Source: Agapetus fuscipes
Lineage: Eukaryota; Arthropoda; Insecta; Trichoptera; Glossosomatidae
DNA length: 64,000 nucleotides
NCBI GenBank assembly: GCA_951799405.1
Contig: OX637337.1
Span: 2,170,001-2,234,000, forward strand
Reading direction: 5' to 3'
The translations under genes and the position numbers were made by a program. The number at the start of each line of letters is the position of its first letter. Position 1 is the first letter of the stretch. The notes beneath the pieces are model-generated. The model saw nothing but the letters and a program-made list of their open reading frames with translations, ran no database searches and was not told the origin of the DNA. Positions 3,462-59,400 of this stretch are shown piece by piece.

Positions 3462-3934
3462 TGTTATGTAAATATAAATATTGAAATAAGTATGGGTAGT
3501 TATAGTTATAAGAGTCCTCATAGGTATAGGTAGGTAGGATCGATAATTGTGTATAGGTGTAGAATTCTCTAGGCTAAGTAGGTACTTGTTATAATTATAG
3601 GAATTCTGTATTACATTTGTAGGTAGGATTTTGGTTGTATCTCTAGGTAGTACGTGAAGCGTCGAGAAGTAATAATTACTCTGGAACCGTCTGGCGACTT
3701 TAGTTCTGGATCATACTGCTCTGAAGAGTATAAAGGTGCGAATGGCCTGCAGAGCGGGCCAGTATCATAGCGACTAACAAACACATCGAAGCCATCTGAT
3801 CAGTGAACCGAAACCAATGGAATAATCGAGAAAGTAGTGTGAAAATAAATTTTGTAACTGTGTAAAATAAATAACTATTGAAGAAGACCTGTGTATTTTT
3901 AATTTGAAGACAATTGAACCCTAATTTCGTAACA
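3462..3934 (+). repeat. 5' LTR of the gypsy element
   Basis: The 473-bp LTR starts TGTTATGTAAATATAAATA and ends CTAATTTCGTAACA. It is repeated at 10828-11300. It has a GAGTATAAAGG TATA-like box around 3727 and an AATAAATAAC polyadenylation-like signal near 3866, as expected for promoter and 3' processing signals in an LTR. Confidence 0.95.
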
Positions 3935-3936
3935 AT

Positions 3937-3951
3937 TGGTGTCAGGTGCGG
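3937..3951 (+). other. Primer-binding site
   Basis: TGGTGTCAGGTGCGG lies two bases after the 5' LTR. It starts with TGG, complementary to a tRNA CCA end, as in LTR elements primed by a tRNA 3' end. I did not assign the tRNA species. Confidence 0.75.
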
Positions 3952-4590
3952 AATTGTCAAGAAAAATTAAGATCTTCTGTCTAAAAATAAATAAAATAAA
4001 TTAAATAGTGTTAAAATGAACTTTATTCAAATTGAACTTTGTGTGAACTGACTTTTGTGAAAACAAGTGTTTAAATAAATTTTTGTTAAAAGAAAAGACG
4101 CAAAAGCAAGTTGCTTATAAATTCTGGAACATCATATGGAACATAATTCTGGACATAACATAATGACTATTTTACCGCATTGAGAAAGTCATCAAATTGG
4201 ACCATAGTTTTTTTATTATTGTGTGTGATTAAAAAAATAAAATAAATAAAAATCTTGAAAAATATTACAAAAAAACGTTCCAGATTCATCGAGAAAAGTT
4301 TTTGAATAACTATCCTTTGTTTACAAGTGTGTGAATGTACATTAAGTACCTACCTGTGTGTTTGAAAGACTTGAGACGAAATAAATAATTATGTACTATC
4401 AGACATTATTATGTTAAAAATATTGGTGATTTAAAAATAAATATTAAAAGACAGTACCTACCAATCAGTGTAATCAGATAAATTATTATTTTGCTAAAGT
4501 ACGTATTCAAAACAGCTATATATATAAAACTCAAAACTTGTATTAAATAAATTTAAAAATATTTTTGTTTTGAAGTAAATTTTGAAAAAA

Positions 4591-5976
4591 ATGGCAACCA
4601 AAGTGAACATCAAGGACCTCAAAGTCACTGAGCTTAAAAATGAGCTTCTGGAGAGGGACCTGGAGACCTCAGGAGGGAAGGCGGCCTTACAGGCACGCCT
4701 CATGGAGGCCTTAGAACAGTCAGGCGAAGACCCGGCATATTTTGTCATGGCGTCTGGAGGGGACCGCGCCTTGGACGAGCTAAACCTCAGCATCACCGGA
4801 AACTTCACTTCCATGGAGGAAAAGCTGAAAGGGGAGATGGCTGACAACGCCAAGACCCTGAAAGTGGAGATGGCTGACAACGCCAAGACCCTGAAGGAGG
4901 ACCTGACCGGGCTGGAGGAGAAGATGGCTGACAACGCCAGGACCCTGGAGGAGAAAATGGCTGACAATTCCAAGACCCTGAGGGAAGACCTGAAGGCGGA
5001 GATGGCTGACAACGCCAGGACCCTGAAGGCGGAGATAGCGGATAGTCTCACAACCCTGAAAGGAGAAATAGAGGAGAAGATGACAACCAACCTCTCGGCC
5101 CTGAAGGGGGAAATGGAGACTCGGATGTCAAACCTGGAAGACCGTCTGCGTGCCGAGCTGGCTGACAAGTGCCAGATGGAGTCCACCAGAATCTCCCCCA
5201 AAGGCGGCCTTCACGACGAGACCGACCAGGGATGCTCAACTCCAACCAGGATCACAAGAGGGGATGATGACCCTTTCCTAGCCAAGCACAACTTCCCAAC
5301 CTTCGACGGGAAGACGTCGTGGGAGGAATACTTGACCCTCTTTGAGACGGCTGCCATGATGGGAGCCTGGAGCCAGCAGAAGAAGGCTTCGGTTCTCAGC
5401 CTGTCGCTCCGAGGAGACGCTCTCAGGGTTCTGCAGGCCATACCCCTGGACAACCGTGGTGACTTTGGGCAGCTGAAGCAGCGCTTGGATATGCGCTATG
5501 GCCACAAGTGCCTGGAGCAGCTGTACAAGTCGCAGCTGAACACAAGGGTGCAGAAGCCCAACGAGAGCCTCCAGGAGTTTGAAATGGACATCGCCCGCCT
5601 GGTACGAGACGCTTACCCGACAGCCTCCGACGACATCTGTGAGAGCTTGGCAGTGGACAAGTTCCTAAATGGATTGCGGGAATGGGAGACGCAACAAGCC
5701 GTAAAACTGGCCCATCCCAAGGCTTTGAACGAGGCGCTCAGCCAAGCTCTCGAGTTTGAGGCTGTCAAACAGTCCATCAGGGGCCACGCCAGGGTTCGTG
5801 CAGTCGAGGCAGAGGAGGTCAAGCTACCTACAACCGAGGAGCTAATTGAAAAAGTGCTGGAACGTCTGAGACCTCGAAGACGAGACCCACGCTGCTGGAA
5901 CTGCGGACAGCTGGGCCACCTTAGCACCAAGTGTCCCAAGCCTCAGAAACCCAGAAAACAGGCTGCGGAAAACTAG
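4591..5976 (+). CDS. gag: Gag polyprotein with SAP domain and coiled coil
   Basis: 461 residues from the ATG at 4591; an in-frame TTG lies three codons upstream, but the ATG is the natural start. Residues about 6-42 ([20 protein letters not shown]...) fit a SAP motif, a small helix-hairpin module known for DNA/RNA binding. Residues about 72-195 are a Glu/Lys/Ala-rich coiled coil built on an 11-residue repeat ([14 protein letters not shown]) copied several times. A retrotransposon capsid domain follows ([18 protein letters not shown] onward), then one CCHC knuckle, [14 protein letters not shown], at nt 5893-5934. The frame is intact. The stop is preceded by GAAAAC, a plausible site for slippage into pol, which lies in the -1 frame. 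An N-terminal SAP domain is unusual for Gag. Confidence 0.93.
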
Positions 5977-7135
5977 AAAGGGTTAATGGGAAGGGGCAAC
6001 CGTTGACCCACGCTGGAGAGGCCCTGAAATCTGCTGCTACTGTCGCAACCGTGAGAGGAAAAGCCAGCAGCATTTTTATCAATGGCATAATAGATGGAGT
6101 AACTCGTGAACTACTGGTGGACACGGGAGCAACCAGGACAATTCTGAGACGCGACATAGTGGCACGAGGCAAGCAGATTGCACCAACAAAGTGGTCTCTG
6201 CACACCGCCACGGGAGAGTCAGCACAGGTGTATGGGGAGACGATTGCCACCTTCCAAATTGGCAGCACCACTTTTGATCATCGGACGTTGGTGGCCAACA
6301 TTGAAGAAGACGTTATATTGGGAATGGACATACTGGACAGATTTGGGTGCAGTTTAAATTTAAAGAAAGGGTCCATTAAAATTGGAAATGAAGAAGTCAT
6401 CCTGCAAAGACGGAAAGAACTGGCTGCACGTGTTATCCTAGCTAAGAATACCGAAGTGAAGGGGCGATCCGAGATGATAGTGAGTGCCCGCCTGGATTCC
6501 AGTAGTACAAATGACCAAATCTGTATGATAGAACCGGAGAACATGGACAATGTTAACAAAGGAGTCATGGTGGCAAGAACAGTGATTCGCGCAAAGGAGA
6601 CCATTCCTGTCAAGATCATGAATGTGAACAGCTACCCAGTTAAAATGAACGAAGGTTTTGTTTTGGGCAGATGTGAGAGGATAACTTCCATTGTGCAACA
6701 GATGACAAACATGTCATGCGGAGGAAACAAATTGTCAACACAATTGGAAGCCCTGGTCCACGACGCTTCCCAAGGTCTAACCGAGGAAGACAAACGGAGA
6801 GTGAGGAGTTTGATCTGCCGCTACCAGAACATTTTCGAGGACTCTAATGGCCGTCTGGGAAGAACCAAGGTAGTGCGACATAGCATAGACACCGGAGAAG
6901 CGAGACCAATAAAACAGGCTCCAAGAAGACTCCCCTTTGCAAAGCGGGAAGAAGCTGACAAGATCATCAAAGACATGAGCAAGGATGGCATCATAGAACC
7001 ATCAAGTAGCCCTTGGACATCCCCGGTGGTACTGGTGAAAAAGAAGGATGGTACCACGAGATTTTGTGTGGACTACAGACTGCTCAACGATGTTACGAAA
7101 AAGGATAGTTACCCTCTGCCAAGGATTGACGACAC
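5931..7135 (+). CDS. pol: Pol part 1: protease and N-terminal reverse transcriptase
   Basis: Open in the -1 frame relative to gag and overlapping its last 46 bases, as in gag-pol frameshift elements. The retroviral-type aspartic protease is shown by [12 protein letters not shown] (DTG at 6120-6128) and [11 protein letters not shown] near 6320. The reverse transcriptase begins around 6940 with [19 protein letters not shown] and the FCVDYRLLN block, and stops at the conserved PLPRIDD motif. A foreign solo LTR (7136-7765) interrupts it here inside a codon. Reading on gives a stop at 7149-7151 within the insertion, so this copy can make only a truncated product. Confidence 0.92.
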
Positions 7136-7765
7136 TGTTATGTTATTTTAAATAACATATTATAAAAAAACAATCCCGAAGTGTGCAGTGTATGTTTGTG
7201 AGCCGAACGGAGCCGAACGGTCACGGAAGCGGCCGAACTGCACCGTATGAACTAATCAGGCCGTCGTTCGTTAGTTCCCGGCGAGATGTGAAGTGAGTCA
7301 GACGTTAGCGACCAAGCACCAAGCGGTGCAAGAGGGGGCACTACAATGGAGCTCCCTCCCCCCCCATCTACTTGGATTTCCTGCCAGCAAGGCACCCGCC
7401 TTGTGGACCAGAGACATAGGAGCGCCCACCCAGGGGCTCCCACGTGTGGAGGACGTGTGAACCACCGCTAGCCTGGGGCGCTGCCCCAGGCCTTCCGTTT
7501 AGAACTCCAGCCAACGGAATAGGGAGTGTTCTGGTGACAACCTGTAGGTCTGGCCAATTCCTTATTTCCCCTTTCCCCCCCCCCCATATTAGTACAGTAA
7601 TAAACCCTTATTTGTTCATGTTAACTTTATCTTTTCATTATAAAACCCTTCCCAAGATACAAGTAAGCAATGCCAAAGAAAGAACCCCACGCCCTGAGAG
7701 TGATGCTGATGAGAGCTAGCCGGAAGTAAGTATCCTGGAAGATACCTTTCAATCTAAACATAACA
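7136..7765. mobile_element. Nested solo LTR (family 2) inside gypsy pol
   Basis: The 630-bp insert starts TGTTATGTTATTTT, ends CTAAACATAACA, and is flanked by ACAC at 7132-7135 and 7766-7769, a 4-bp target duplication. It has no internal coding region, so it is best read as a solo LTR of another LTR family. A second copy of about the same length lies at 21620-22243. AATAAACCCTTATTTG near 7600 is a polyadenylation-like signal. It must be younger than the host gypsy copy. Confidence 0.88.
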
Positions 7766-8763
7766 ACACCTTGGACACATTGGCAGGATGCACCATTTTT
7801 TCCACATTGGACCTGAAAAGTGGCTACTGGCAAGTTGAATTGGATGCCAAAGATAAGGAGAAAACTGCATTCTCGACTGGATCTGGACTTTGGCAGTTCA
7901 CCGTGATGCCATTTGGCTTATGCAATGCCCCCGCCACGTTTGAAAGGCTGATGGAGAATGTGCTGCGAGGACTGTCATGGGAAACCTGCCTGGTATACTT
8001 GGATGACATAATCATCCTGGGAAAGGACTTCAACCATCAGTTGAGAAATCTGGAGCAAGTTTTCGGGCGACTACAAGACGCTGGACTGAAGCTCAACCCG
8101 AAAAAGTGTAACCTGTTCAAGAAACAAGTAAATTACCTGGGACACATAGTTTCTCAACGTGGAGTTGAAGTTGACCCTGCCAAAATCAAGGCAGTAAGAG
8201 ACTGGCCCGTGCTGAAGGACAAACATGAAACTAGGAGTTTCCTGGGGCTGTGCACTTATTACAGGAGGTTTGTGCCAAGATTTGCGGACATTGCAAAACC
8301 GCTCACCAAGCTTACGGAAGAAAACACTCGCTTCCATTGGAGTGATTCCTGCGCACAAGCATTTGAAGAGCTTAAGGGAAGATTAACAAGTGCCCCCATC
8401 TTGAGCTACCCACGAAAAGATGGAAAGTTCATCCTGGATACCGACGCTAGTAATGTGGGGATAGGAGGCGTCCTTTCCCAAATACAGGATGGGCATGAGA
8501 CTGTTCTGGGTTACTTCAGTAAAGTGCTTTCCAAGCCAGAACGAAATTATTGCGTGACCAGACGAGAGCTTCTTGCCGTGATAAAATCAGTGGAACACTT
8601 CCGCAAATACTTGTACGGGAGAAAATTCACACTACGGACTGATCATGCTGCACTGGTTTGGCTTCTGAAATTCAAAAACCCAGAAGGGCAAGTGGCTAGA
8701 TGGATTGAAAGGCTCCAGGAGTATGATTATGACTCCGAACATAGACCTGGCACGCTTCATTGA
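7766..8763 (+). CDS. pol: Pol part 2: rest of reverse transcriptase and RNase H
   Basis: Resumes the reverse transcriptase directly after the nested LTR. Motifs are FSTLDLKSGYWQVELD, the MPFGLCNAPATFERLM block, the catalytic YLDD at 7996-8007, and the thumb/connection LNPKKCNLF and GHIVS. RNase H runs from about 8420 with LDTDASNVGIGGVLSQ and RELLAVIKSVEHFRKYLYGR. It is cut by an in-frame TGA at 8761-8763 just after HRPGTLH. The usual NADALSRR continuation follows in the same frame, so a point mutation is the likely cause. Confidence 0.92.
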
Positions 8764-10827
8764 AATGCGGATGCATTATCCAGACGACCATGCGCCAGTG
8801 ACTGCAAACATTGCAGCAAGATGGAGGACAAGGTAGCAATTGTCCAAAGGACGACCACCGAAGATGAGGACTGGCAAGATGAAAAATTGGCGCAAGACCA
8901 ACTGAATGATCCGGACTTGAAGTATGTGATGGAATGGGCGCGAGAAGGAGAAAGGCCAACCTGGGAAAAACTCGCCCCCTTATCACCAACTGTCAAGGCT
9001 TATTGGGCTCAATGGGGATCCATAGTGATAGAAGGAGGGTTTCTGAAACGAAAGATCGAGAAGGAAGACGGCACACTTAGAAGAAAGCAAACCCTCGTTC
9101 CGAGGAGCCGAGTACCGGAAATCCTTGGACTGCTGCATGGAGGAACTTCTGGAGGACATCTAGGCGTTAAGAAGACGCTGGAGAAAGTGAAAGAGCGATT
9201 TTACTGGATCAACTGCAGCGAAGACGTCAAAGATTGGTGTCGAAAATGTGTAACCTGTGCAACGGCCAATGGACCGCAAAGGAAAAGGCGAGCACCAATG
9301 CGTCAGTACAATGTTGGCAGCCCCTTTGAAAGAATTGCCATCGACATAGCTGGCCCATTTCCTACAACTGAGAAGGGTAACAAGTACATCATGGTGGTGA
9401 TGGATTACTTCAGCAAGTGGGTGGAAGCTTACTCAATCCCTAACCAAGAGGCCGTAACCGTGACTGAAGTTCTATTTACCGAATTTATCAGCAGGTTTGG
9501 CGTACCCCTGGAATTACATTCTGATCAGGGAAGGAACTTTGAAGCTGCTATCTTCCAGCAAATGTGTGAGCGGCTAGGGATCTACAAGACCAGGACCACT
9601 GCGCTACATCCACAGTCTGATGGAATGGTGGAAAGGATGAACCGTACCGTGGGGAGGTACTTAGCCAAAGTAGTGTCCAGCCGTCAGCGGGACTGGGACC
9701 GACATCTGCCTTTGTTCTTATTGGCTTACCGGTCGGCTGTTCAGGAAACGACGAAGAAGACTCCCAGCAGCATACTGTTTGGGCGAGAAATGCGACTTCC
9801 TTGTGATCTTAAATTTGGCTGCAAACCAGGTGAAGACCTAGCCGGAGAAGACTATGTGACAGACCTTCGCAGGAGGCTGGATGACATCCATGATCAGGTC
9901 CGCATGAACATCGGGGAAGCCAGCGATCAAATGAAGGAGCGCTATGACACCAGAGCTGACAGCATGGGGTACAAAGCTGGTGACTGGGTGTGGCTTTTTG
10001 ACCCCAAGAGGCGCCAAGGATACTGTCCGAAACTTCAGCGTTCCTGGGACGGGCCGTACGAGATCTTGGAGCGCATCAACGATGTGGTCTACCGCATAAA
10101 AAAGAGACCAAACGGAAAACCAAGGGTCGTGCACTACAATCGCCTCTCACCATACCTAGGCGATAATGATGACCAACCAGCCCAAAAAGTACGACAGTGC
10201 GTCGCATCCGAAAGATCACCAGCCTTTGAGACGTTTTGGGAGAACGCGAAGGCAGGGCAGAAGTTTCGCCATGGAGTGACCACAGAAGTCCACAAGGACT
10301 TATTTGAGGTCACTAGGGACCACACACTGGCATGCAGTGTACCGGAAGATCTAGATATGTCTAGAGGAATTGCACGGGTCTTCCGATACAAATTCGGAGA
10401 ACCGCAACCCTCGAGCAGCCCGCAAGGAAGAGCTCTGAGACTACCGAAGGGGCGTCAACAAGCATACTGCCTGGTTGTCCCGGATTCCAGCAACCTGGAA
10501 GAGGACTACAAGGCATTGTGGGACGGCCTTGTTGAGCTGCGTGACTACATGTTGGAGGATCAGCAGGCGCGTCTGGCAATACCGAAGATGGGTGGCGGCC
10601 GCGCTAATCGAGACTGGCGGATAATCCGGAGTATGATTGAAGCAGTGTTCTCGGGAGTCGGCATCAGCGTCATGGTGTGCTGCGAGCAAGCGCAGCCGAG
10701 AGCCAGTGGGGAGAAATCCGTGGACTGCCACTTCTTCCTGACCACAGGGTGTCGACGTGGATCAGCATGCCCCTACCTACACAGAGTCAAGACTGTTCCG
10801 GGACGAAACAGTCTAGGTGGGGGGTAG
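8764..10827 (+). CDS. pol: Pol part 3: integrase, macro domain and CCCH finger
   Basis: Same frame as part 2 after the nonsense codon; the first ATG is at 8821 (668 codons from there). The integrase has a zinc-binding H106-x6-H113-x26-C140-x2-C143 and a DD35E core at D175 (RIAIDIAGPF), D235 (HSDQGRNF) and E271 (GMVERMNR), then a GPYEIL/VHYNRLSPY C-terminal module ending near residue 450. Where gypsy Pol usually ends, this one continues about 200 residues. It has a macro domain (about 489-620) that resembles TARG1/OARD1 and a CCCH zinc finger (636-654). No chromodomain is visible. The macro domain is intact in frame, so it was maintained until recently. Confidence 0.92.
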   Translation, partial: NADALSRRPCASDCKHCSKMEDKVAIVQRTTTEDEDWQDEKLAQDQLNDPDLKYVMEWAREGERPTWEKLAPLSPTVKAYWAQWGSIVIEGGFLKRKIEKEDGTLRRKQTLVPRSRVPEILGLLHGGTSGGHLGVKKTLEKVKERFYWINCSEDVKDWCRKCVTCATANGPQRKRRAPMRQYNVGSPFERIAIDIAGPFPTTEKGNKYIMVVMDYFSKWVEAYSIPNQEAVTVTEVLFTEFISRFGVPLELHSDQGRNFEAAIFQQMCERLGIYKTRTTALHPQSDGMVERMNRTVGRYLAKVVSSRQRDWDRHLPLFLLAYRSAVQETTKKTPSSILFGREMRLPCDLKFGCKPGEDLAGEDYVTDLRRRLDDIHDQVRMNIGEASDQMKERYDTRADSMGYKAGDWVWLFDPKRRQGYCPKLQRSWDGPYEILERINDVVYRIKKRPNGKPRVVHYNRLSPYLGDNDDQPAQKVRQCVASERSPAFETFWENAKAGQKFRHGVTTEVHKDLFEVTRDHTLACSVPEDLDMSRGIARVFRYKFGEPQPSSSPQGRALRLPKGRQQAYCLVVPDSSNLEEDYKALWDGLVELRDYMLEDQQARLAIPKMGGGRANRDWRIIRSMIEAVFSGVGISVMVCCEQAQPRASGEKSVDCHFFLTTGCRRGSACPYLHRVKTVPGRNSLGGG
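10285..10683 (+). other. Macro (ADP-ribose-binding) domain within Pol
   Basis: Three blocks line up in order with TARG1/OARD1-type macro domains: VHKDLFEVTRDHTLACSVPE (family GDLF...SLAH), then LDMSRGIARVFRYKFG (family RMGAGIA..F..KFG), then RLAIPKMGGGRANRDWRII (family PRIGCGLD..W), ending MIEAVFSGVGISVMVC (family MIEEVF...I.ITV). At the two residues used for catalysis in human TARG1 (Lys84 and Asp125, from memory of that family) I align Pro and Ala. The domain may therefore bind ADP-ribose without TARG1-type hydrolysis. That is inference; the homology itself is strong by pattern. Confidence 0.85.
10726..10782 (+). other. CCCH zinc finger at Pol C-terminus
   Basis: CHFFLTTGCRRGSACPYLH has the spacing C-x7-C-x5-C-x3-H, the usual form of CCCH fingers that bind RNA. 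It sits 24 codons from the start of the terminal stop region and just upstream of the polypurine tract. Its role in the element is unknown; RNA or capsid binding is a guess from the family. Confidence 0.8.
10814..10827 (+). other. Polypurine tract
   Basis: AGGTGGGGGGTAG directly abuts the 3' LTR, the normal place for the plus-strand primer. It also encodes the last Gly residues and the stop codon of pol. Confidence 0.75.
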
Positions 10828-11300
10828 TGTTATGTAAATATAAATATTGAAATAAGTATGGGTAGTTATAGTTATAAGAGTCCTCATAGGTATAGGTAGG
10901 TAGGATCGATAATTGTGTATAGGTGTAGAATTCTCTAGGCTAAGTAGGTACTTGTTATAATTATAGGAATTCTGTATTACATTTGTAGGTAGGATTTTGG
11001 TTGTATCTCTAGGTAGTACGTGAAGCGTCGAGAAGTAATAATTACTCTGGAACCGTCTGGCGACTTTAGTTCTGGATCATACGGCTCTGAAGAGTATAAA
11101 GGTGCGAATGGCCTGCAGAGCGGGCCAGTATCATAGCGACTAACAAACACATCGAAGCCATCTGATCAGTGAACCGAAACCAATGGAATAATCGAGAAAG
11201 TAGTGTGAAAATAAATTTTGTAACTGTGTAAAATAAATAACTATTGAAGAAGACCTGTGTATTTTTAATTTGAAGACAATTGAACCCTAATTTCGTAACA
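10828..11300 (+). repeat. 3' LTR of the gypsy element
   Basis: 473 bp, same length as the 5' LTR, with one difference found by reading (G at about 11083). It is followed by ATATATAATA, which repeats the ATAT left flank. Confidence 0.95.
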
Positions 11301-18235: not shown

Positions 18236-19135
18236 GATGAAATGTCCATGGACAGAATGTCCCCCGACACAATGTCCATTCACAAAGTGTCCCTGGACAA
18301 AATGTCCACGCGACATAATTTCAACGCGACACAATGTCCAACAACAAAATGTCCACTGACACAATGCCCACAGGACATGATGTCCACGCGACAGAATGTC
18401 CCAGCGACAAAATTTCCACGCGACATAATTTTAACACGACAAAATGTCCACCGACAAAATGTCCACTGACACAATGCCCACAGGACATGATTTCCACGCG
18501 ACAGAATGTCCCAGCGACAAAATGTCCGCGTGAAATAATTTCCACGCGACAAAATGTCCGCGTGAAATAATTTCCACGCGACAAAATGTCCACGTGACAA
18601 AATGTCCACTGACACAATGCCCACAGGACATAATTTCCAAATGACAGAATGTCCAAGTGACAAAATGGCCCTGTAAAAGAATTTCCACGCGACAAAATGT
18701 CCACGCGGAAAAATTTCCACCGACAAAACTTCCATTGAGAAAATATCCTCCCGACAAAATGTCCACACGACAAAATGTCCACCGACAAAATGTTCCCGCG
18801 ACATAATTTCAACGCGACAAAATGTCCACCGACAAAATGTACACTGACACAATGCCCACAGGACATAATTTCCACGCGACAAAATGTCCACGCGGAAAAA
18901 TTTCCACCGACAAAACTTCCATCGAGAAAATATCCAACCGACAAAATTTCCACGCGACAAGATGTCCACCGACAAAATGTTCACCAATATTACGTTAAAT
19001 GAGAACAAGCATATAATGCCGACATTTTGTCGTTGGACATTTTATTGGTGGATATTATGTCGCGTAGATATTTTGTCTGTGGACATTGCGTCGTTGGACA
19101 TTCTGTCTATGGACATCTTATCGTGGAACCATAAA
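18236..19135. repeat. Palindromic minisatellite, CGACAAAATGTCCACG type
   Basis: About 45 degenerate 17-bp units (CGACAAAATGTCCACGC and variants with AATTTCC). A higher-order block starting CACTGACACAATGCCCACAG recurs at about 18355, 18468, 18606 and 18847. From about 19012 the array flips to the reverse complement (ACATTTTGTCGTTGGACATT), making a fold-back end. Long frames through it on both strands are artefacts of the repeat. Confidence 0.88.
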
Positions 19136-21619: not shown

Positions 21620-22243
21620 TGTTATGTTATTTTACCAAATAACATATAAAAAAACATTCTCGAAGTGTGCAGTGTGTGTTTGTGGGCCGAACGGTCACGG
21701 AAGCGGCCGAACTGCGCCGTGTGAACTAATCGAGCCGTCGGTCATCAGTTCCCGGCAAGATGTCAACCGATTAAGACGTCAGCGACCAAGCACCAAGCGG
21801 TGCAAGAGGGGGCACTACAATGGAGCTCCCTCCTCCCCATCTACTTGGATTTCCTGCCAGCAAGGCACCCGCCTTGTGGACCAGAGGAATAGGAGCGCCC
21901 ACCCAGGGGCTCCAACGTGTGGAGGCGTCCGCCTTGTGAGTCGCCGCTAGCCTGGGGCGCTGCCCCAGGCCTTCCGTTTAGAACTCCAGCCAACGGAATA
22001 GGGAGTGTTCTGGTGACAACCTGCAGGTCGTGCCATTCCCTTATTTCCCCTTTTTCCCCCATTTAAGTAAAGTAAATAAACCCTTATTTGTTCATGTTAA
22101 ACTTATCTTTTAATTATAAAACCCTTCCCAGAGTAGGTACAAGTGAGCAACCGAAAGAAAGAACCCCACGCCCTGAGAGTGATGCTGATGAGAGCTAGCC
22201 GGATGTAAGTATCCTGGAGATACCTTTGAATTTTAACATAACA
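21620..22243. mobile_element. Solo LTR (family 2), second copy
   Basis: 624 bp starting TGTTATGTTATTTTACC and ending TTTTAACATAACA, closely similar to the copy nested in the gypsy element at 7136-7765. Flanks are ATAC (21616-21619) and ACAC (22244-22247), a 4-bp duplication with one mismatch. It sits inside LINE-A. Confidence 0.88.
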
Positions 22244-38434: not shown

Positions 38435-41400
38435 GTAAGTTCAGTAAATGGATTAAGAAGTTTTTTTTTTTTTTTTTTTTATTAACAAAATATAAATACA
38501 ATTTTTTTTTTTTAAAACAAGTAATATTTCTAAATAATAATAAAAACTTAATTGTTATTTCCTCACCAATTGAAGAGCCAAGCTCTTGTGCTTGTTGAGG
38601 GAATCGCAGCTATCTTAAATAAATTATGTTCTTAAATTATATTCTATATAATATAATGAGATAAAAACTTAATATAATACTTAAAGGAAAAAAATATAGG
38701 TAATACACAAGAATAAATCAAAAAATAAATTAACAATATAAAAATGAAAAAAAAACAAAAATTAGAAACAACCAATCAATAAGTAGAACTATGAATATAT
38801 ATATTTTTTTATTTTAAACTTAATTTTTTTAACATCCTTAATTATTTTGATTTCATTTGGCAATATGTTATAGTATTTTATTCCCCTACAGATAAAATTA
38901 TTCTCGAATTGTTTTGTTTTAAATTTAGGAATTGTTATAAAATTTTGTCTTCTCCTTGATATAGCTCTTTCAAATTGTTTTGCTTTGTCAATTTTTATTA
39001 TTTCCAGAATAGAGTACAGTTTGAAAATTTGTTCTATAGTTGGTACCTTAAAATTTTTGAATAAAGATTCTGTTGAAAATGTTGGTGGCTTTTTTAGAAT
39101 TACTTCTGTATATAATTAATAATTACTAGTAATAATTAATCTCTGAGCTATTTTAATTGAATTTAAAATATTATCATATGATCCCCCCCATCCAATTATG
39201 CCATATTGCAACATTGATTGTACAATTGAGTAGTATACCATTTTTAATTGTTCGATTTTAAGAATGTTTCTGAGTCTTATGAATATGTATATGCATTTTC
39301 GTATTCGTTTGACCAGTTCCATTATGTGATTTTTCCACTTCATATTTTGATCTATAATAATGCCTAGGTATTTTATATTTTTAGTTGAAGTTAGTGTTGA
39401 ACATGTGTTTTCACAGTTTTTAGTTTCATTGCAATTCTGACTGTGTATGATGATTTTAATTGGCGGCTCTGAATTAAATTTATTTATTGCGAAAGAAATG
39501 AATTGAGTTTTTTTAATATTTAGTGATAATATATTACTATCGAACCACCCCTTGAGTATATTCATGTCAAGATTTGCTCGTTCATTAATAGAGCGCCAAT
39601 CTTGTCCCTCCAATATAATGGCAGTATCATCTGCATAAGATATTATTTTTCCATTGAGTTTTAGAGTGAAAATATCATTTGTGTATAAGATGAATAGTAA
39701 TGGACCCAGTACAGTACCTTGTGGGATACCAAATTCACCGGTTGATGGTTGACTATAAGAACTATTAATTTTAACTATTTGAGATCTCTGATATAAGTAA
39801 CTTTTTATCCATTGTAACGCTTTTAATTTTATCCCAATTGAATTCAGTTTTACAATTAGTTTTTCGTGAGAGATGCTATCAAATGCTTTTTTTAAATCAA
39901 TGAAAATTCCGATACATTTAAAAGATTGGTCAAGTGAGCTATGAATTAAGTTCGTTATTTTCGCGATGGCATCTTGAGTACTTCTATTTTCCATGAATCC
40001 GAATTGGTTATCGTGTATTATATTGTTGGCTTTTATAAATTTAATTAACCTAATTTTTGCTAATTTTTCAAAAATTTTTGCTATGTTAGATATAACAGAA
40101 ATGGGTCGGTAATTGTTTACTTTTTCCCGATTTCCTGTCTTAAATATGGGTGTTATTATTGTTTTTTTGTAATTTGAAGGAAACGTTCCACTTTCAAAAC
40201 TCAAATTAATTATATGTTGTAGTGGTTTCGATATTTGTTCTTTAATATGTTTTAAAGTTTCAGCAGAAAGAGCATCATATCCAGGCGCCGTGCCGTTTTT
40301 CAGATTGCTAATTACTGTCTCTATTTCTTCCCTTGTTGTGGGTTGAAATATATATAATATCATGTGTTTCTCTTCTATATTGCACTTTAATTCGGGAGAA
40401 GTACTTTTACCAGGTATTTGCTGAGCTAAATTTTTTCCAACACTTGAAAAGAAATTGTTGAAAATATTAGCAGCTTTTGAGGGATTTTCTCTACAGCACG
40501 TGGTTTCGTTTTCATGATTAATGGCTATTATTTCATTTTTCATGTTTTTGTTTTTTTCAAGAAAATCGTTTATAACAGACCATACATTTTTAGGGTTATT
40601 TTTGGTTTGTTCTAATTTATGTTTGTAATAATTTTCTTTTGTGGATTTTATTAAATATGTAAGCTTTTTTTTAAATTTTTCAAAATATTTGAGCAATTTT
40701 AGATTGTTCGGTTGTTGACGGGTTTGTTTATAAACAGAGTTTCTTTATGTCGGATTGATACTACTAGCCCATGTGTGATCCATGGTTTAATCGGCTTATA
40801 TTTGTGTTTTATGTTATGTTGCACACTTGTTGATTCTTCAACAAGTTTTTTCATTGTATTTTCAAACATTATACAACATTCATTTACATTATTCATTAGA
40901 TAAAAATCGGACCAGTTCACAACATTTAATTTATCTTTTAAACTATCTAGGTTTATTTTATTATATTTTGATACTTTATTTGTTTTTTTTGTCTCTATCT
41001 GTGGAGTATTATATTTATAGTTAAATATACATGAGAAGTGATCTGTTATAGATGTGTGAATGACTGCGGAAGTAATATTATGAAAGTCGGGGATGTTTGT
41101 AAATATATGATCCAAACATGATGGCTGTTGTCCTCTAATATTTCTTGTAAATGAATTAATGCAGGAGAAATAATTCAATTCTGCCAGCATATTTAGGTAG
41201 ATATCTTTATCGTTTGTGTAATTATTATCAGCAATATTTAAATTCATGTCACCAACCAAAATGTTTTTTTTACTTGTGCAAGTTACGAGTATATTTTTTA
41301 ATCCTTCTTTAAATTGTGATATAATTGATGTATGAGTACGATAGATTGCAAATATATTATAATTTTTATTGTTATTATTAATTTCAAGATTTAATATATT

Positions 41401-44400: not shown

Positions 44401-47400
44401 ACACCTTTACCAAAAACTGGTCACCAAAGATTCATCCAGACTAACAGCAACTAGGTCTTGCTTGAGAATTGGCGCTAAATTGTTGGACGACCAAGCTCGT
44501 AAAAAGTTTGGTTGATAGCTTAGTTGGTAGAATGCTTGCATTCCATGCTGGGAGCAAGGGTTAGATTCCTACTGAAGGTGTCGAAAAGGATTATTTTTTG
44601 CCGTTTTGGTGTATATTTCAAACCCAAATAAATACCGGCTAGGTGTACTCAGCCTTCACAAGAAAAGAAAACCAGCCCCTCCGGGAGCTGGGATACCCCT
44701 CTTCAATTGAAAGTGGTTGGTCTGAGGCCGGCCCCCTTACCCGTAAAAATAAATAGGTCCCGAGTCACCATATGCGACACCTTCGGGATTAACGCAGGCA
44801 TGAAGTTACACTATGTATGTAGCTTAGTTGCGTTGCTTTATTTTCAGTAAATGCAGATGTCTGAAATGTTACCTAATATTTTAATTTAAACTGATTTTCA
44901 TGTTTTATTTTCAGATGTCCCCTGGTACCACAAAGTCCTTCTCAGCAACCCTCTAAAAGTCGCTATTGCTCTGTCAATTTTCGCCATCTTGGCACCAACT
45001 CTAGTCTTTTTCTTCTTCTACCAAAACGTCTACGAAAAAAATTCAGTCACAGATGGGTTCTCGTCTGGCTCATGCGCACACAACACCTCTCACAGACTAG
45101 AATGCGGTTTGGATTTAGACACTAGAAAAGACTGCCCGAAAAACTGTTGCTTTGACGAAGACAAACTATTCTGCTATCATTATCTGCCATCTCGATTCTC
45201 ATATTTTGTTTCAAGTAATGTCACACAAAATGAACTAACTTTAAAACCAAGACAAGTGAATACACCGTACAAATCAACAGACAATATGAAACAGCTTGGA
45301 CTGAAATTAAACGAAGTCAACGAAAGGCACTTCAATTTTATTATATTTGACAAAACCAAAGAGAAATTCAACGAAACTGACAGAAACATAACAAACAAAA
45401 TGTATAAAAGTAAAGTTTACAGACCTGAAATGTTTATTGAAATATTTGCTACGGAATTGGGGAATGATTCAAAGCCTCTTTTATCCACATCTAGAGGTCC
45501 TTTGATTGTATCGAAAAATATCTGGGAGTGGACGTTTCATCTGTCTGATGAAATGATTTACGGATTGGGAGAGTTGATTCTTGAACCTGGGATGACAAGA
45601 ATTATATACAACTCGGATGGCAACAGCCAAACGATTCCTTTTCTCATGTCCCAGAGGGAGGGGATCTTCTATGGGGTGTTTTTTGAGAGTCAAGGTCCGA
45701 TGGAAATAAAGATTATCGGTTCGCGAGCTGTGAATATCCGATGCTTATCCGGGGACAGATTCAGTGTACATTTTCTCTACGGACCGAAGCCTCCGGATGT
45801 TATAAATATGTTGGTTGATTTGATCGGAAAACCGGATTTGCCGCCGTATTGGGCGCTAGGAGCTCATTTTTGCAGGTATGTATTTGTACTATTTTTTTTC
45901 AAAAAAGTCGTGAAGAAGAATGCAATTCACTAAACAATTTTGTCTAGCCAAAAAGCAGATTTTAACATTGTAAATTATTAATTCATCATTTAATATTTTT
46001 AATGAATTATTCATAATTAATTACCCAATGATATAGATCTGTTGAACCGGGTCGAAGTATTGTCGATATGACACGACCCAGACGGTGTTCGAACTTGCGA
46101 TTTAAATAACGCAAATTCCAGCGCCAATTTCTCATACCCTTGACCATCCCAGCGACAATACGTATTTTTAAATAAATTCGTGAAACCGAATGAAATTCAC
46201 GAATCTATTTTTGCCTTCCTATAGACATGTATTTACATTATGAATTAAATAATCCATCGTTTTATTTAATTTAATTTAAGTTTTTATTTGAAATTATACA
46301 ATGACATCTGTTGAACTAGGGGCAAAGATATGATTAAGGGGTCCGACGCAAATAATATAAGAATAATAAAAACTACAACAAATAGGTTTTTTTTACATTT
46401 CATTAAAATAAATGTGACTGGGATAGTCAAAGGGATAAAGGCGTCGTCGCTCGAATTTGCGTTATTGACACTAACGCTGGTTCGAACCCCGCCTGCGTCA
46501 GATCCTATCGATAAAAACTTCGACCCTGGATCAACAGATGTCATCGGGTAGCTATGAATTTATAATTCATTAAAAAATTAGATAATGAATTATAGTTTCT
46601 GGCCAGGCAAAATAGGTTGGTCAAAAAACCAGTGAGTGTTTTATTTTTGGATACCCAAATTCAGGCTTTTTTTCATTAACAAAAGCCTCTTACACATTTA
46701 ACAGCTACCTTACTCCGGGTCTCTTTATATTGTTCTTAGTATAAATATTATGAAATACAACGCAATGTACTAATTCAAATCTACCCACTTAAGAAACCCC
46801 GTAGTATAAACATCGCGTAAACATAAATACGTATGAAAAATAAACCACTCACTAGGGTTGCTGTTGTATTTTTTAAACATTTTTCTTTGTACTCGATTGC
46901 ATAGAAATCACGTGATATTTCGAGCCAGGGGCAAGGAACTTCTCAAATATCAAAAATAATCTATTAAATTTGTGGGCAGAACGTTCACTTTTTCATTACA
47001 TTAAAAAAAACAAGATCACAACGAAATATATCTCTGTAATAACATGTGCCCTTAGTATAAAAAAATGCGTAAGTAAGTACTTAATATTTGCGTAAATACA
47101 TATTAAAGGAATAATGTATTAAAGTTCAGCGCGCTGTAGAATTTTAACTTGGTTATTGCATTTACGCGTCTGCTGAGTATTTACGCAAACTCGGCGTCAG
47201 CAAAGCAAAAAAATAATGTATTTTTTTTGTTCCATCTTAAAACGACACAGAGACAAAACGACAGATGACATAACGACACATGACGAAACAAAACATGACA
47301 GAACATCGCAATTACAGTAAATCACATGTCAAAGCATCACTATGACAACTGTGATGTTTTGTCATGTGATGTTTTTTCAAGTGCCGTTTATGGTATGTTC

Positions 47401-50400: not shown

Positions 50401-53400
50401 TGCTCCGCCGGGATCCGAATCCACAACCTTCCATTTACGAGTCCGAAGTGTTGCCACTGGACTACGGACCGGTAAAAAATTGAAAATGTAAATGGTATTT
50501 GCTCTACCGGGATTCAAACCCACAATGTTCCATCTAAGAGTCCGAAGCGTTACCTGTACTCTTAGTACGAGTTGCAAAACTTGAGTAATGTAAAGTTTAC
50601 GGCAATTATTAAAGAGTGATTTCCCCCAAAATCTGCCGTTTTTGTTTGTTTGAACTTGATTTTCTTCATCACTGTAACTCTTTTGCTAAGGTCATAAAGT
50701 GTAAGAAACAATAACGGCAGATTTTGGGAGAAATCACTCTTTAACATTTTCCGTAAACTTTACTTTTCTCAAGTTTTGCAACTCGGAATAAGGGTACAGA
50801 AGACTACGGACCGGCCCGCGGGTTGATTTTGTTTTTATTCATTTTTCGATTTACGCAATACTTGAGTATATTTTACTCAATGGTTTATACTTGGTGTAAA
50901 GATCAAAAATATATTCTCGGAAAACTTGACGAGCTCGTGTGATTTTGTTTTTCATTTATGATATTAACTTGATTCATGTTTTCGTCAAGCACATTAAGTT
51001 AGCTTTTTTTCAGTTTTCATTTTGGTATAATATTGTTACGAAATTAGGGTTCAAAAGTCTTTCAAATTAAAATACACAGGTCTTCTTATACAGTTGTTTA
51101 TTTTACACTTATAAATAATTTATTTTCAGAAAGCTTTCTCGACTATTCCACTTGGTTTCTGTTCACTGATCAAGTTAGTTCTATGTGTTTGTAAATCTTG
51201 TATGATACTCTGGCCCTGCAAGCCACTCGCACCCTTCTTATACTCTTTAAAAGAGTACAATCTAGACCTATATTTGCTAGACAGTTCCAGAAAGGCATAG
51301 TAATTATTATTTCTCGATGCTTCACGAATTTTATTCAATGATTCCTACCCACACAATACAATACATAATTCCTATAACTATAACAAATACCTACTTATTT
51401 TAAATATTTATATTTCATATTTACATAACAATATGTAATCATATTATTTAGTTTTGTATTCATCGGTGATATGATAGACCAGCACAGTGACAAAACAACG
51501 CACGACAAAACCTCACATTACATTGCATAACACTTACAGTACATAAGACATATCATAAAGAGCAATAACTCAAAAAATAAGAATGTTGGTAAATCACGTT
51601 TGAAGTTCAGACAACCAGTACAACTTGTATGGGATGAAAAAGACGACCGATGTTTTATCTCGGTCATATTCGTCCAAATTGAACGGCTGTCGCATTCTAC
51701 CTATTCTTCTCGCATTGTTCTGGCGTTTTATTACAAAATCTCAATTTTCCCAATTTTCGAGTTATTTATCTTTATTATTAAGCGTAGGTTCAGAATCACT
51801 TTGCATTTTTGTTTGTAAATTTACAATCCTCGAGCCCTAAACCCTCACGGCTATAATCTTTCAGTGATTTCTGAGCCTCCTTTGCTTTGTGTAAACACTT
51901 AGGAAAGTGTAGCTTCACGGGAGGGCCTTCTGCCACTCGCATCTCACATAATTTTTGCATGCGAGTCCTGTGACACATCCCCGGATGGGATGGATATACA
52001 GGGCGTGGGTCAGTGGAGGGAAGACTGACCCTGAGTACAACTATCTATAATCTAAAGTTTCAAGGATATATTAACATTTAAAGCTCTCAAATGCATGCCC
52101 ACAAACAAACACGTGCAATTAGCGCTTACAAATGCTGAATGTGTACGTACAATTCTGTAACTGTAACTCTGTCGCCATTCCGCTAGGGGTGGCCAGAGCC
52201 TCTGCAGAGTTGCCTCCATTTTTTCCTATCCTGACATACCTTTTTCAATTCCTTCATATCCATCACCTTTTTCATGCATTTTCTTCTTTTACGCTCACTT
52301 TGTATATCCCATTCTTTCACAATCTCCACAATCTGATCACTCCATACTTTTCTCGGTCGTCCCTTCCCTCGTTTTCCTTTCACACTTTCTTCGTATACAT
52401 ACTTTGTCAGTCTATCATTATTCATTCTTTTCACATGTCCAATGTCCATTCTTTTGTACTTTTGTACTTTCACATCCTCTTTCAAATTACATTCTTTTTT
52501 TACCCATTCATTCCAACTCTATCCCTCAACGTTTTTCCTGTCACACTTCTCAAATGCTTCATTTCCACCGTACATACTTTACTCATTTCACTATCATTCA
52601 CTGTCCATGCTTCACTTCCATACATCAAAGTCGGTAACAATAAAATCCAAACCTCAAATGAACATAAGAAGAACACAGGGGTGACATTGGCAAAGTGAAC
52701 CATTTTTTACAGTATGGGTGGTCAGCCTCATACTAACCTATAAGTCAAGACATCACATGACAAAACGTCACAATGATAAAACAATTCAGAAAAACATCAT
52801 TATGACAAAACATTTGTGGTTAATTTTTTTTAAAAGATTAACCAGATAATGTATACCTACATGAGTTCCATTTTCCCATGTCTAACTTTTTTGTTACACC
52901 GTTTATGGTGTTTTCTATTTTGTGATGTTTTGCCATCCTACCTAGCACTCAAGCAATCTCGAACAAATTATTATCTTTATAATTACCCAACGCCTATTTA
53001 TTTCTCGAGAGACTTCACAGACTGTTTAATTAACTCACACAGGCAAACCGTCCCCCAGTGCTTGTTTCGCTTACCCACTATTTGAATCAAATATGACCTT
53101 TTCATGAAATTGTCTCACGAATCATATTTTACACAATGTGAGTTAAGAAAAAAGCATAAAACACGATAATGTCATGGGGCTTCCACACGCTTGCCAACCC
53201 ATCACAAGTCAAGCGCACAGTGTGTCGTCTAGAACATGCTAACTGGACAAAATTTTGTCTAATGGACTAATTTTGTCCAGCTAGCATGTTCTAGACGACA
53301 CACTGCACACTTGGCTTGTAGCTAAGCGCACAGTGTGTCGTCTAGAACATGCTAGCTGGACAAAATTAGTCCATTAGACAAAATTTTGTCCAGCTAGCAT

Positions 53401-56400: not shown

Positions 56401-59400
56401 ATTCCATGCAAAAAACAAAGGACTGGCTGAAGGAATTCTGGCCTTTCGACAATATAACTACTTCGTTCGTATTGAAAGACAACTGGCCCAAAAACGATGA
56501 CACAATAGAGGGTTGCTCTGTAAATTTACCCTATGTGACGGATGTAAGTACATACTTTACAATTATTGTATTTATTAACAGGGTGATGGCTCAGTTAATA
56601 GAGTGCATTAATCAAAAGAGTAAACACAGTGTTTGGAGAGCGTGCATTTGCAGTTGCTGGTCCTTTGGCCTGGAACCATCTGCCTCATCATGTGAAAGAG
56701 CTAGAGGACCACGGAAAGTTCCGAAATGCACTGAAGACACGCAAATTTCTGGCATCACATGCACAAGCGCCCTTGGAGTGACAACATCACGAAACGGCGC
56801 TATAAAATCACACATCATCATCATGATGCCTCATACCTAATGTGAGGAAGGCAAAGACTGTTGGTGTCTTTAAAGGAGCACTAAAGACACATCTTTACAA
56901 GAAATCTTATCCGTGATTTGAGAGGGCCCTTGAGGTGTGACACACACAAAAACGGCGCTCTTCAATTATGTGTACATTAAAATAAATTATCCTTTTATAT
57001 ATATATCATCCTCTTGCATTACATGCAGTGAGCTTGTTTTCAAGTCAACCGACGGTGTCAGATGTGATTTCTCCCTTTCCGTGATTATTTCAAACTTAAA
57101 ATAAAGTACCGGCAAGGTTTACTCAGCCTTCAAAAGAAATGAATACCAGCCCCATCGAGAACTGGGAAACCTCCATTTCAACTGAAGTGATTTGCATTGA
57201 AAAAGCGAAAGATTTGCATTCAATTTTTATATTTTCTTCATAATTAATTTTCCAGACATATTGCAGGAGAAAAAATCTAGATAATGAATAAAGCAAGACT
57301 ATCAATATTATTTAATAAAGTAAATTTCACTAATAAGCTTAAAAAAACATCTATATTTAAAACGCGTAGTTTTTTAAGAAAATCTTTTTAATAAACTTAA
57401 AATTGAATTCTGTTTTTAGAAAATATAATATTTCAACGAAACGAGAAGTTGTTCTCTTTCTTTTATCAAATTTTCACTTAATGCAGACAGTTTCATGCAT
57501 TTTAATACGATATATTAAAGTCTTTTTTTTGTAATATTATTAAAACGTCTTTATTTAATAAAATTTCATTTAAAATTTTTGATTCTAGACGAAATGTTAT
57601 TGAAGAAGAACTCATTTTATTCTCGACGTTTTTTTAAAAGAAACACCGTTTTTGTGTAGTGAGTAAGGATGAACTAATAAAAATGTTTGGCGTTTTATAT
57701 CAACAAAACTCAAGCGTATATATATCTAGAATATTTAATCTTAGTTGCATAGATATATTCGTTCATTCATATTACGTGTATTTCCATAAACAGACACGTA
57801 TAAGATCACGCTCACACATGCCGCATGTGAACTTTGAACATAAAAACCCAATCTCAAATAAACATAATCCCTGTAACTTTCGCCGACCTTCCCTGAAACA
57901 GGGTTAACATTGCCAGAGAGAAACATTTTTTATAATATAGGTTGTCAGCCTCATACAGATACATACATTAGTCAAGCAATAGATAGTAATTATTTTTTCT
58001 GTTTTAAATATTTTTCTTTGCGGTGGTCGATAAAGAACTTAAAAAACAAAAATTCATATAATTTTTTTTAAAGAAAAAGCGATATTTTATTTAATAAATT
58101 ATGTATTTATAAATAAGAAACAATCAAAGACTCCCACGACCTTTATAACATTTAATCTTTTGTTTATATTTATTTTGCATAGGGGCCGTCCATAAATTAC
58201 GTCATCGATTTTGGCCGATTTTCGACCCCTCCCCCCTTACAATCATCCTAAGTCATTATCTAATGACACCCCCCCCCCTCTTGCTGTAATAATGGATGAG
58301 CTTAATAATGAAGAATTACAAGAACGACGTCACTTTTGGTACTCGTACATCATTTGCCGTCATCCGCAGACCAGACTCCCCCTCCTTAATGCGAATGACG
58401 TAATATATGGACAGCCCCATAGTCTATCTATTTTTATGTCCAATGTCGTTTCAATGGCCGGTATAAATAAATCAATCCCGAAATATCTCGCCGTCAAAAC
58501 TAACACTAACTATTATTCTATTTCAGTTAATCAATCAGACGTTGTGTGGTTCGATTCCCTGGAATGCGAGAGAGAACAAACCCAACACAAAAATACTCCA
58601 TTTCAACACACACAACGTGTACGGCAATCTCCATTCAATGGCTATTTCAAACACCCTACTCAATCAAAAGCAAAACCAAGACTCCTTCATGATGACAAGC
58701 AGTAAAAGTTTTGGCATTCCAGCAGCATCGCACATCCAAAACGTAAACGCAACTTGGGGCAGTTTCAAACAGGCGTTCCAACAATCCGTCGCAAGTTCCA
58801 TATCCGGTTCTTTCATCACAAGTGTTCCAATTTGTGGAGACTCTGACATCTTTGACTCTAAAACCCTCGAACACTTGTGTATCAAATGGTATTTGGCATC
58901 GGTATATTTACCAGTTTTTACTGTGACTTCAATCAACGAGGCAAGGGATCCCTTTGTGTTTTCTGGGTTCGCTAAAAACGCTATGATCAGAGCGATACAA
59001 ACAAGGTACAAACTTTTACCTTATTTCAATACGGTTTTGAATGGTGGAGAACCCTTGCTGAGACCGATGTTTTACGATTATTATTGGGACAATGGGACTT
59101 GGAATCTTGATGAGCAATTTATGGTTGGCAGTGCTATATTGGTAGCTCCAAACTTTCTGCCTTCGCAGTCCAGCGTCAGTGTTTACTTGCCTGAAGGAGA
59201 GGAGTTCTACGATTTGTGGGGTGGTAGTCCCATCAAGAGGGGTGACACTGGCAATGTCGATATACCTACTAGTGAAACCCAAACTGCCACCCTGATTAGA
59301 GCTGGGAATATAATTGCTGTTCAAGAGGTAAATGTAACATTTTGAAACACTATTTTTAGTACTAAATTGTTAATTTTAATCGGATAGAACCAAACTGGTA

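Follow-up and report, generated by a model that had tools for sequence, protein, structure and literature searches.

A Ty3/gypsy-type retrotransposon of Agapetus fuscipes with a TARG1-like macro domain and a CCCH zinc finger at the end of Pol

In a stretch of 64,000 nucleotides from the caddisfly Agapetus fuscipes (contig OX637337.1, positions 2,170,001 to 2,234,000), hereafter referred to as the window, we identified a long terminal repeat (LTR) retrotransposon at positions 3462-11300, the Pol frame of which continues beyond the integrase into a TARG1/OARD1-like macro domain and a CCCH zinc finger. A TARG1-like macro domain in frame behind a Ty3/gypsy-type integrase had been suggested in an earlier note on this DNA, and is borne out here by sequence, profile and fold matches to TARG1, but that account had overlooked the second added domain, the CCCH finger at 10714-10782. 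The integrase, the macro domain and the finger are encoded in one frame, and the order downstream of the reverse transcriptase (RT) and RNase H is integrase, GPY/F, macro domain, CCCH finger, stop codon and LTR (Table 1). Our preferred interpretation, to which we assign a probability of about 0.42, is that the module at the end of Pol is a non-hydrolysing ADP-ribose reader that would tether or shield the integration complex, combined with a CCCH finger.

The macro region matched the TARG1 family by sequence (E 6.6e-11) and scored 59 bits against the TARG1 profile, as compared to 4.9 bits for the best of 2000 shuffled sequences. In a fold search with the predicted structure, TARG1 was the top match, with 27% identity over 130 residues. 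A chance match or an artefact is ruled out by the shuffle control and the fold search. The macro core was folded with fair to high confidence in an alignment-based model, while an alignment-free model showed weak agreement with the TARG1 fold. No match to the Pfam family Macro (PF01661), proposed as a check in the earlier note, was obtained at E up to 10, although human TARG1 does match this family. The top match by fold in BFVD was VP8 of Kadipiro virus (E 4.1e-10, 27% identity), a double-stranded RNA virus from mosquitoes, which may likewise have acquired a macro domain of the TARG1 type.

For the comparison of individual residues, we drew on the best 120 of 2507 relatives listed in the protein search, the named ones of which are nearly all from vertebrates. 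In total, 53 of the 120 were aligned with the window tail, including the database protein P0001 from a 996-bp ENA contig, and 52 were used in the comparison. The residues corresponding to K84 and D125 of TARG1, the latter of which we take to be the catalytic partner of the former, were present in all 52 relatives, as opposed to Pro and Ala in the element, which upholds the earlier suggestion that both catalytic positions have been replaced. The element's domain hence lacks the Lys84 and Asp125 pair of a TARG1 hydrolase. According to PMC8501950, K84 is the catalytic lysine, the K84A variant fails to rescue DarT toxicity, and the lysine is required in both TARG1 and DarG. TARG1 residues kept in the element are D20-L21-F22, M40, G43-I44-A45, P118, G121, G123 and W129. 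From these residue patterns, hydrolysis by the element's domain is unlikely, while ADP-ribose binding, as judged from the modelled fold, is plausible but not assured.

The CCCH finger has the spacing C-x7-C-x5-C-x3-H, which conforms to the general pattern C-x7/8-C-x5-C-x3-H, and it matched PF00642 with 21.6 bits (cut-off 20.5) when the 208-residue tail was searched, and with 18.7 bits, which is under the cut-off, when the 668-residue frame was searched. The tail from position 10687 also matched CPSF4 with an E-value of 1.1e-7 that is summed over several CPSF4 fingers, none of which does better than 0.054 by itself.

We searched the assembly (618 Mb, 148 contigs) for other copies with the 208-residue tail, which comprises the macro domain and the finger. 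From the 1405 candidates returned, 150 were scored, and all of these, including the window copy, were 100% identical over the 208 residues and contained no stops. The existence of further copies with the same order of integrase and macro domain, another check put forward in the earlier note, is thereby established. The frame was exactly 1422 amino acids long in 110 of the scored places and at least 1422 amino acids long in 119, and the tail DNA of eight copies (L001-L008) was either the same as that of the window copy or differed from it by 1 base in 624. The LTRs were compared in 30 of the 150 copies, hand-picked across the list; the end of the 3' LTR was missing from the piece in 4 and the whole 5' LTR in 5, leaving 21 pairs. 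Identical LTRs were found in 17 of these pairs, and 7 mismatches were counted in 10394 sites (one pair was compared over 455 of 476 bases). The mutation rate in butterflies is near 3e-9 per site per generation, at which the mean insertion age would be about 1e5 generations, with the qualification that the selection of copies by identical protein favours young ones. The 4-bp target duplication matched in 19 of the 21 copies; one 5' flank lay outside the piece and one was mismatched. Three classes of LTR length were observed among the module-bearing copies, of about 429-438, 472-476 and 516-519 bp (copies noted for their length are L031, L035, L040, L016, L020 (long) and L014 (short)), and in the longer class 44 bp seem to have been duplicated close to the start.

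Because all 150 scored places carry the module and 17 of the 21 LTR pairs are identical, we conclude that the macro and CCCH module belongs to a young, abundant family. The alternatives that the module is private to the window copy, or that its catalytic residues were lost by decay of that copy, are ruled out by the 150 scored places and by P0001, which has 2 differences in the shared part and the same Pro and Ala.

The window copy itself has LTRs of 473 bp each with a single mismatch between them, in line with the earlier description of it as recent. The accompanying suggestion that this copy was probably functional suits the family instead, since the window copy is broken in the RT by a 630-bp insert and has a stop codon (TGA) between RNase H and integrase, whereas copies with an open frame exist. 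The insert is 87% alike to the segment at 21620-22243, and both are probably solo LTRs of another family. Segments at 51033-51397 and 59492-59579 on the minus strand are 77% and 80% alike to the LTR of the element, and are probably older related LTRs.

The LTR ends of the type TG..CA, the short target duplication, and a Gag followed by protease, RT, RNase H and integrase with a GPY/F-type end are those of Ty3/gypsy elements, and the closest solved structure to the integrase is Ty3 Gag-Pol (7q5b, E 1.4e-32). On the basis of domain order and the integrase match, the element is classified as an env-less Ty3/gypsy-type LTR retrotransposon. An env gene of the errantivirus type is absent between the integrase and the 3' LTR, since the stop codon of Pol abuts the LTR, and each of the other five frames of 10201-10824 is interrupted by 5 to 8 stops. 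In the overlap of Gag and Pol, no site with a strict slippery pattern was identified.

Table 1. Positions of the features of the retrotransposon in the window.
Feature	Position	Strand	Remarks
5' LTR	3462..3934	+	TGTTATG...CGTAACA ends; ATAT directly upstream; one mismatch to 3' LTR
Primer binding site, TGGTGTCAG...	3937..3951	+	complements the 3' end of what is presumably tRNA-Leu
Gag	4582..5976	+	SAP domain, repeats, Retrotrans_gag and CCHC knuckle, in this order
Gag SAP domain	about 4609-4716	+	E 2.9e-8
Gag repeated stretch	4778-5060	+	MADNAKTLK type; downstream of SAP domain
Retrotrans_gag domain	5395-5682	+	within Gag
CCHC knuckle	5890-5940	+	within Gag
Pol, first piece	5931..7151	+	aspartic protease and start of RT; frame differs from that of the overlapping Gag; reads into the insert
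Aspartic protease	6078-6341	+	in first piece of Pol
Foreign insert, 630 bp	7136..7765	+	TG...CA ends; ACAC on both sides; disrupts RT
Pol, second piece	7771..8763	+	remaining RT and RNase H; TGA stop precedes integrase frame
Integrase	8821..10197	+	H2C2 9097-9270; rve core 9322-9597; GPY/F-type C-terminal domain 10051-10152
TARG1/OARD1-like macro domain	10282..10677	+	Pro at K84 position (codon 10480-10482); Ala at D125 position (codon 10603-10605)
CCCH zinc finger, CPSF4/CPSF30-like	10714..10782	+	C-x7-C-x5-C-x3-H
G-rich polypurine-like tract and Pol stop codon	10812..10827	+	abuts 3' LTR
3' LTR	10828..11300	+	ATAT directly downstream

Elsewhere in the window, the segments at 44989-45933 and 58542-59345 are likely exons for a glycosyl hydrolase of family 31 (PF01055; the second has an E-value of 6.4e-22, while the first stays below the cut-off). 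An RT frame at 39116-40696 on the minus strand (RVT_1, E 1.7e-37) probably belongs to a non-LTR element, and repeats at 18280-19011 are open in two overlapping minus-strand frames.

Pol thus ends in an added module, in which a TARG1-type macro domain is followed by one CPSF4-like CCCH finger. The macro domain retains the fold, as predicted, and the glycines of the loops for ADP-ribose, but both catalytic residues are lost. We propose that it would bind ADP-ribose without cleaving it, and that the tail could thereby serve as a reader, such that the integration complex would be held on ADP-ribosylated chromatin, or ADP-ribosylated ends or proteins would be shielded, with the finger contributing RNA or DNA binding. 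The tethering hypothesis stems from the location of the macro domain at the C-terminus of the integrase, which is where chromoviruses, the chromodomain-bearing gypsy elements, carry their chromodomain. It is doubtful whether the proposal can be extended to a scenario in which a TARG1 hydrolase, on losing its catalytic pair, became a docking domain that directs or safeguards integration at PARP-marked chromatin, as a counterpart to the chromodomain, and in which this helped one lineage to multiply to 150 or more near-identical copies.

Several observations weigh against a reader at the integration site. Of the 79 positions at which 80% or more of the relatives agree, only 30 are retained, as are 14 of the 30 invariant ones, and the altered positions include G19, H32, C33, S35, C122 (Gly) and Y150, for which reason the affinity for ADP-ribose may be gone. 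The 3' flanks of 26 of the 30 sampled copies were ATAT (13), GTAT (8), TTAT (2), ATAC (2) and ATAG (1), and this short target preference, with RTAT in 21 of 26 flanks, would not require a tether. A protease cut could separate the module from the integrase. Furthermore, selection is not demonstrated by identical sequences in a burst of this age, and since the module itself was the query, the 150 places are a count of module-bearing copies.

Another explanation, which we consider less likely, is a counter-defence that works by binding. In this case, the macro domain, catalytically dead and brought to RNA by the CCCH finger, would mask ADP-ribose placed by the host on the RNA, complementary DNA ends or proteins of the element, or act as a decoy, during replication and not at the integration site. 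Viral macro domains known to counter ADP-ribosylation are mostly hydrolases, whereas the catalytic pair is absent here, and no part of the element is known to be ADP-ribosylated. Shielding or a decoy is retained as an explanation because the finger adjoins the macro domain, because ADP-ribosylation also occurs on the ends of RNA and DNA, on which TARG1 acts, according to a review (PMC11088682), and because ADP-ribosylation of KAP1 by SIRT6 silences L1, according to another review (PMC4695847); the match to Kadipiro virus VP8 also speaks for it.

It is rather unlikely that the module is a passenger, a captured host fragment with no remaining role in ADP-ribose biology that the integrase keeps as a spacer or structural extension. 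The loss of the catalytic residues and of 49 of the 79 well conserved positions would be expected for such a fragment, and the burst is too young for the identity of the copies to argue for selection, but the alignment-based model of the core still has fair to high confidence, 59 bits to the TARG1 profile remain, and the module is open in all 150 scored places, which were, however, found with the module as the query. Macro families use several catalytic arrangements. Nevertheless, an active hydrolase that works through other residues is highly improbable, since the lysine needed in TARG1 and DarG is Pro here, with Ala at the Asp125 position, even if catalysis by TARG1 has been suggested to differ from that of PARG and MacroD1 (both in passages of PMC8501950).

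The landing sites of retrotransposons are explained in part by integrase tails that recognise marks on chromatin, and a tail on an ADP-ribose fold would connect retrotransposition with DNA damage and signalling by PARP. Owing to its youth and abundance, the family lends itself to a test of the PARP link on natural insertions, and its domain offers a natural relative of TARG1 without the catalytic pair for comparison with the enzyme.

No longer Pol relatives carrying the module were found among 650 protein candidates at E 1, and P0001 was the only match among 262 candidates in a protein search with the tail at E 10. In viral contigs, no match was confirmed with the 668-residue frame (1 stretch) or the macro alignment (31 stretches), and none of 31 stretches was confirmed in a scan of genome contigs. 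The earlier statement that macro domains are not a standard part of Ty3/gypsy Pol stands in so far as none was found in any gypsy element in the literature searched, where absence does not equal absence from print; the Troyka paper (PMC12440569) contains no word beginning with "macro". It needs to be complemented with a precedent from another reverse-transcribing lineage, the epsilon-like endogenous retroviruses of fish, which have open reading frames for macro domains (Basta et al., 2009, as cited in a passage of PMC4977317). Like the element, they represent the capture of a macro domain by a reverse-transcribing element, but in that passage these are additional reading frames and are not described as a fusion to gypsy Pol.

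TARG1/OARD1 (C6orf130), a cellular ADP-ribose glycohydrolase, has the same predicted fold, length and block order as the element's domain, but is a single-domain enzyme with K84 and D125, whereas both residues are replaced in the element and the domain is fused to a retrotransposon integrase. The macro domain of the bacterial antitoxin DarG, which has the catalytic lysine, fell far below the cut-off. CPSF4/CPSF30 aligns with the element over the finger and the preceding SGEK stretch; five fingers were matched in CPSF4, as compared to one finger in the element. The order of protease, RT, RNase H and integrase is shared with Gag-Pol of Ty3 (Ty3-G), to which the element adds the macro domain and the CCCH finger after the integrase. 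The chromodomain of chromoviruses reads methylated histone, and is thus a reader-type domain added to the C-terminus of the integrase in a position that matches that of the module, with the difference that the tail is a chromodomain in chromoviruses and an ADP-ribose-type fold with a CCCH finger in the element.
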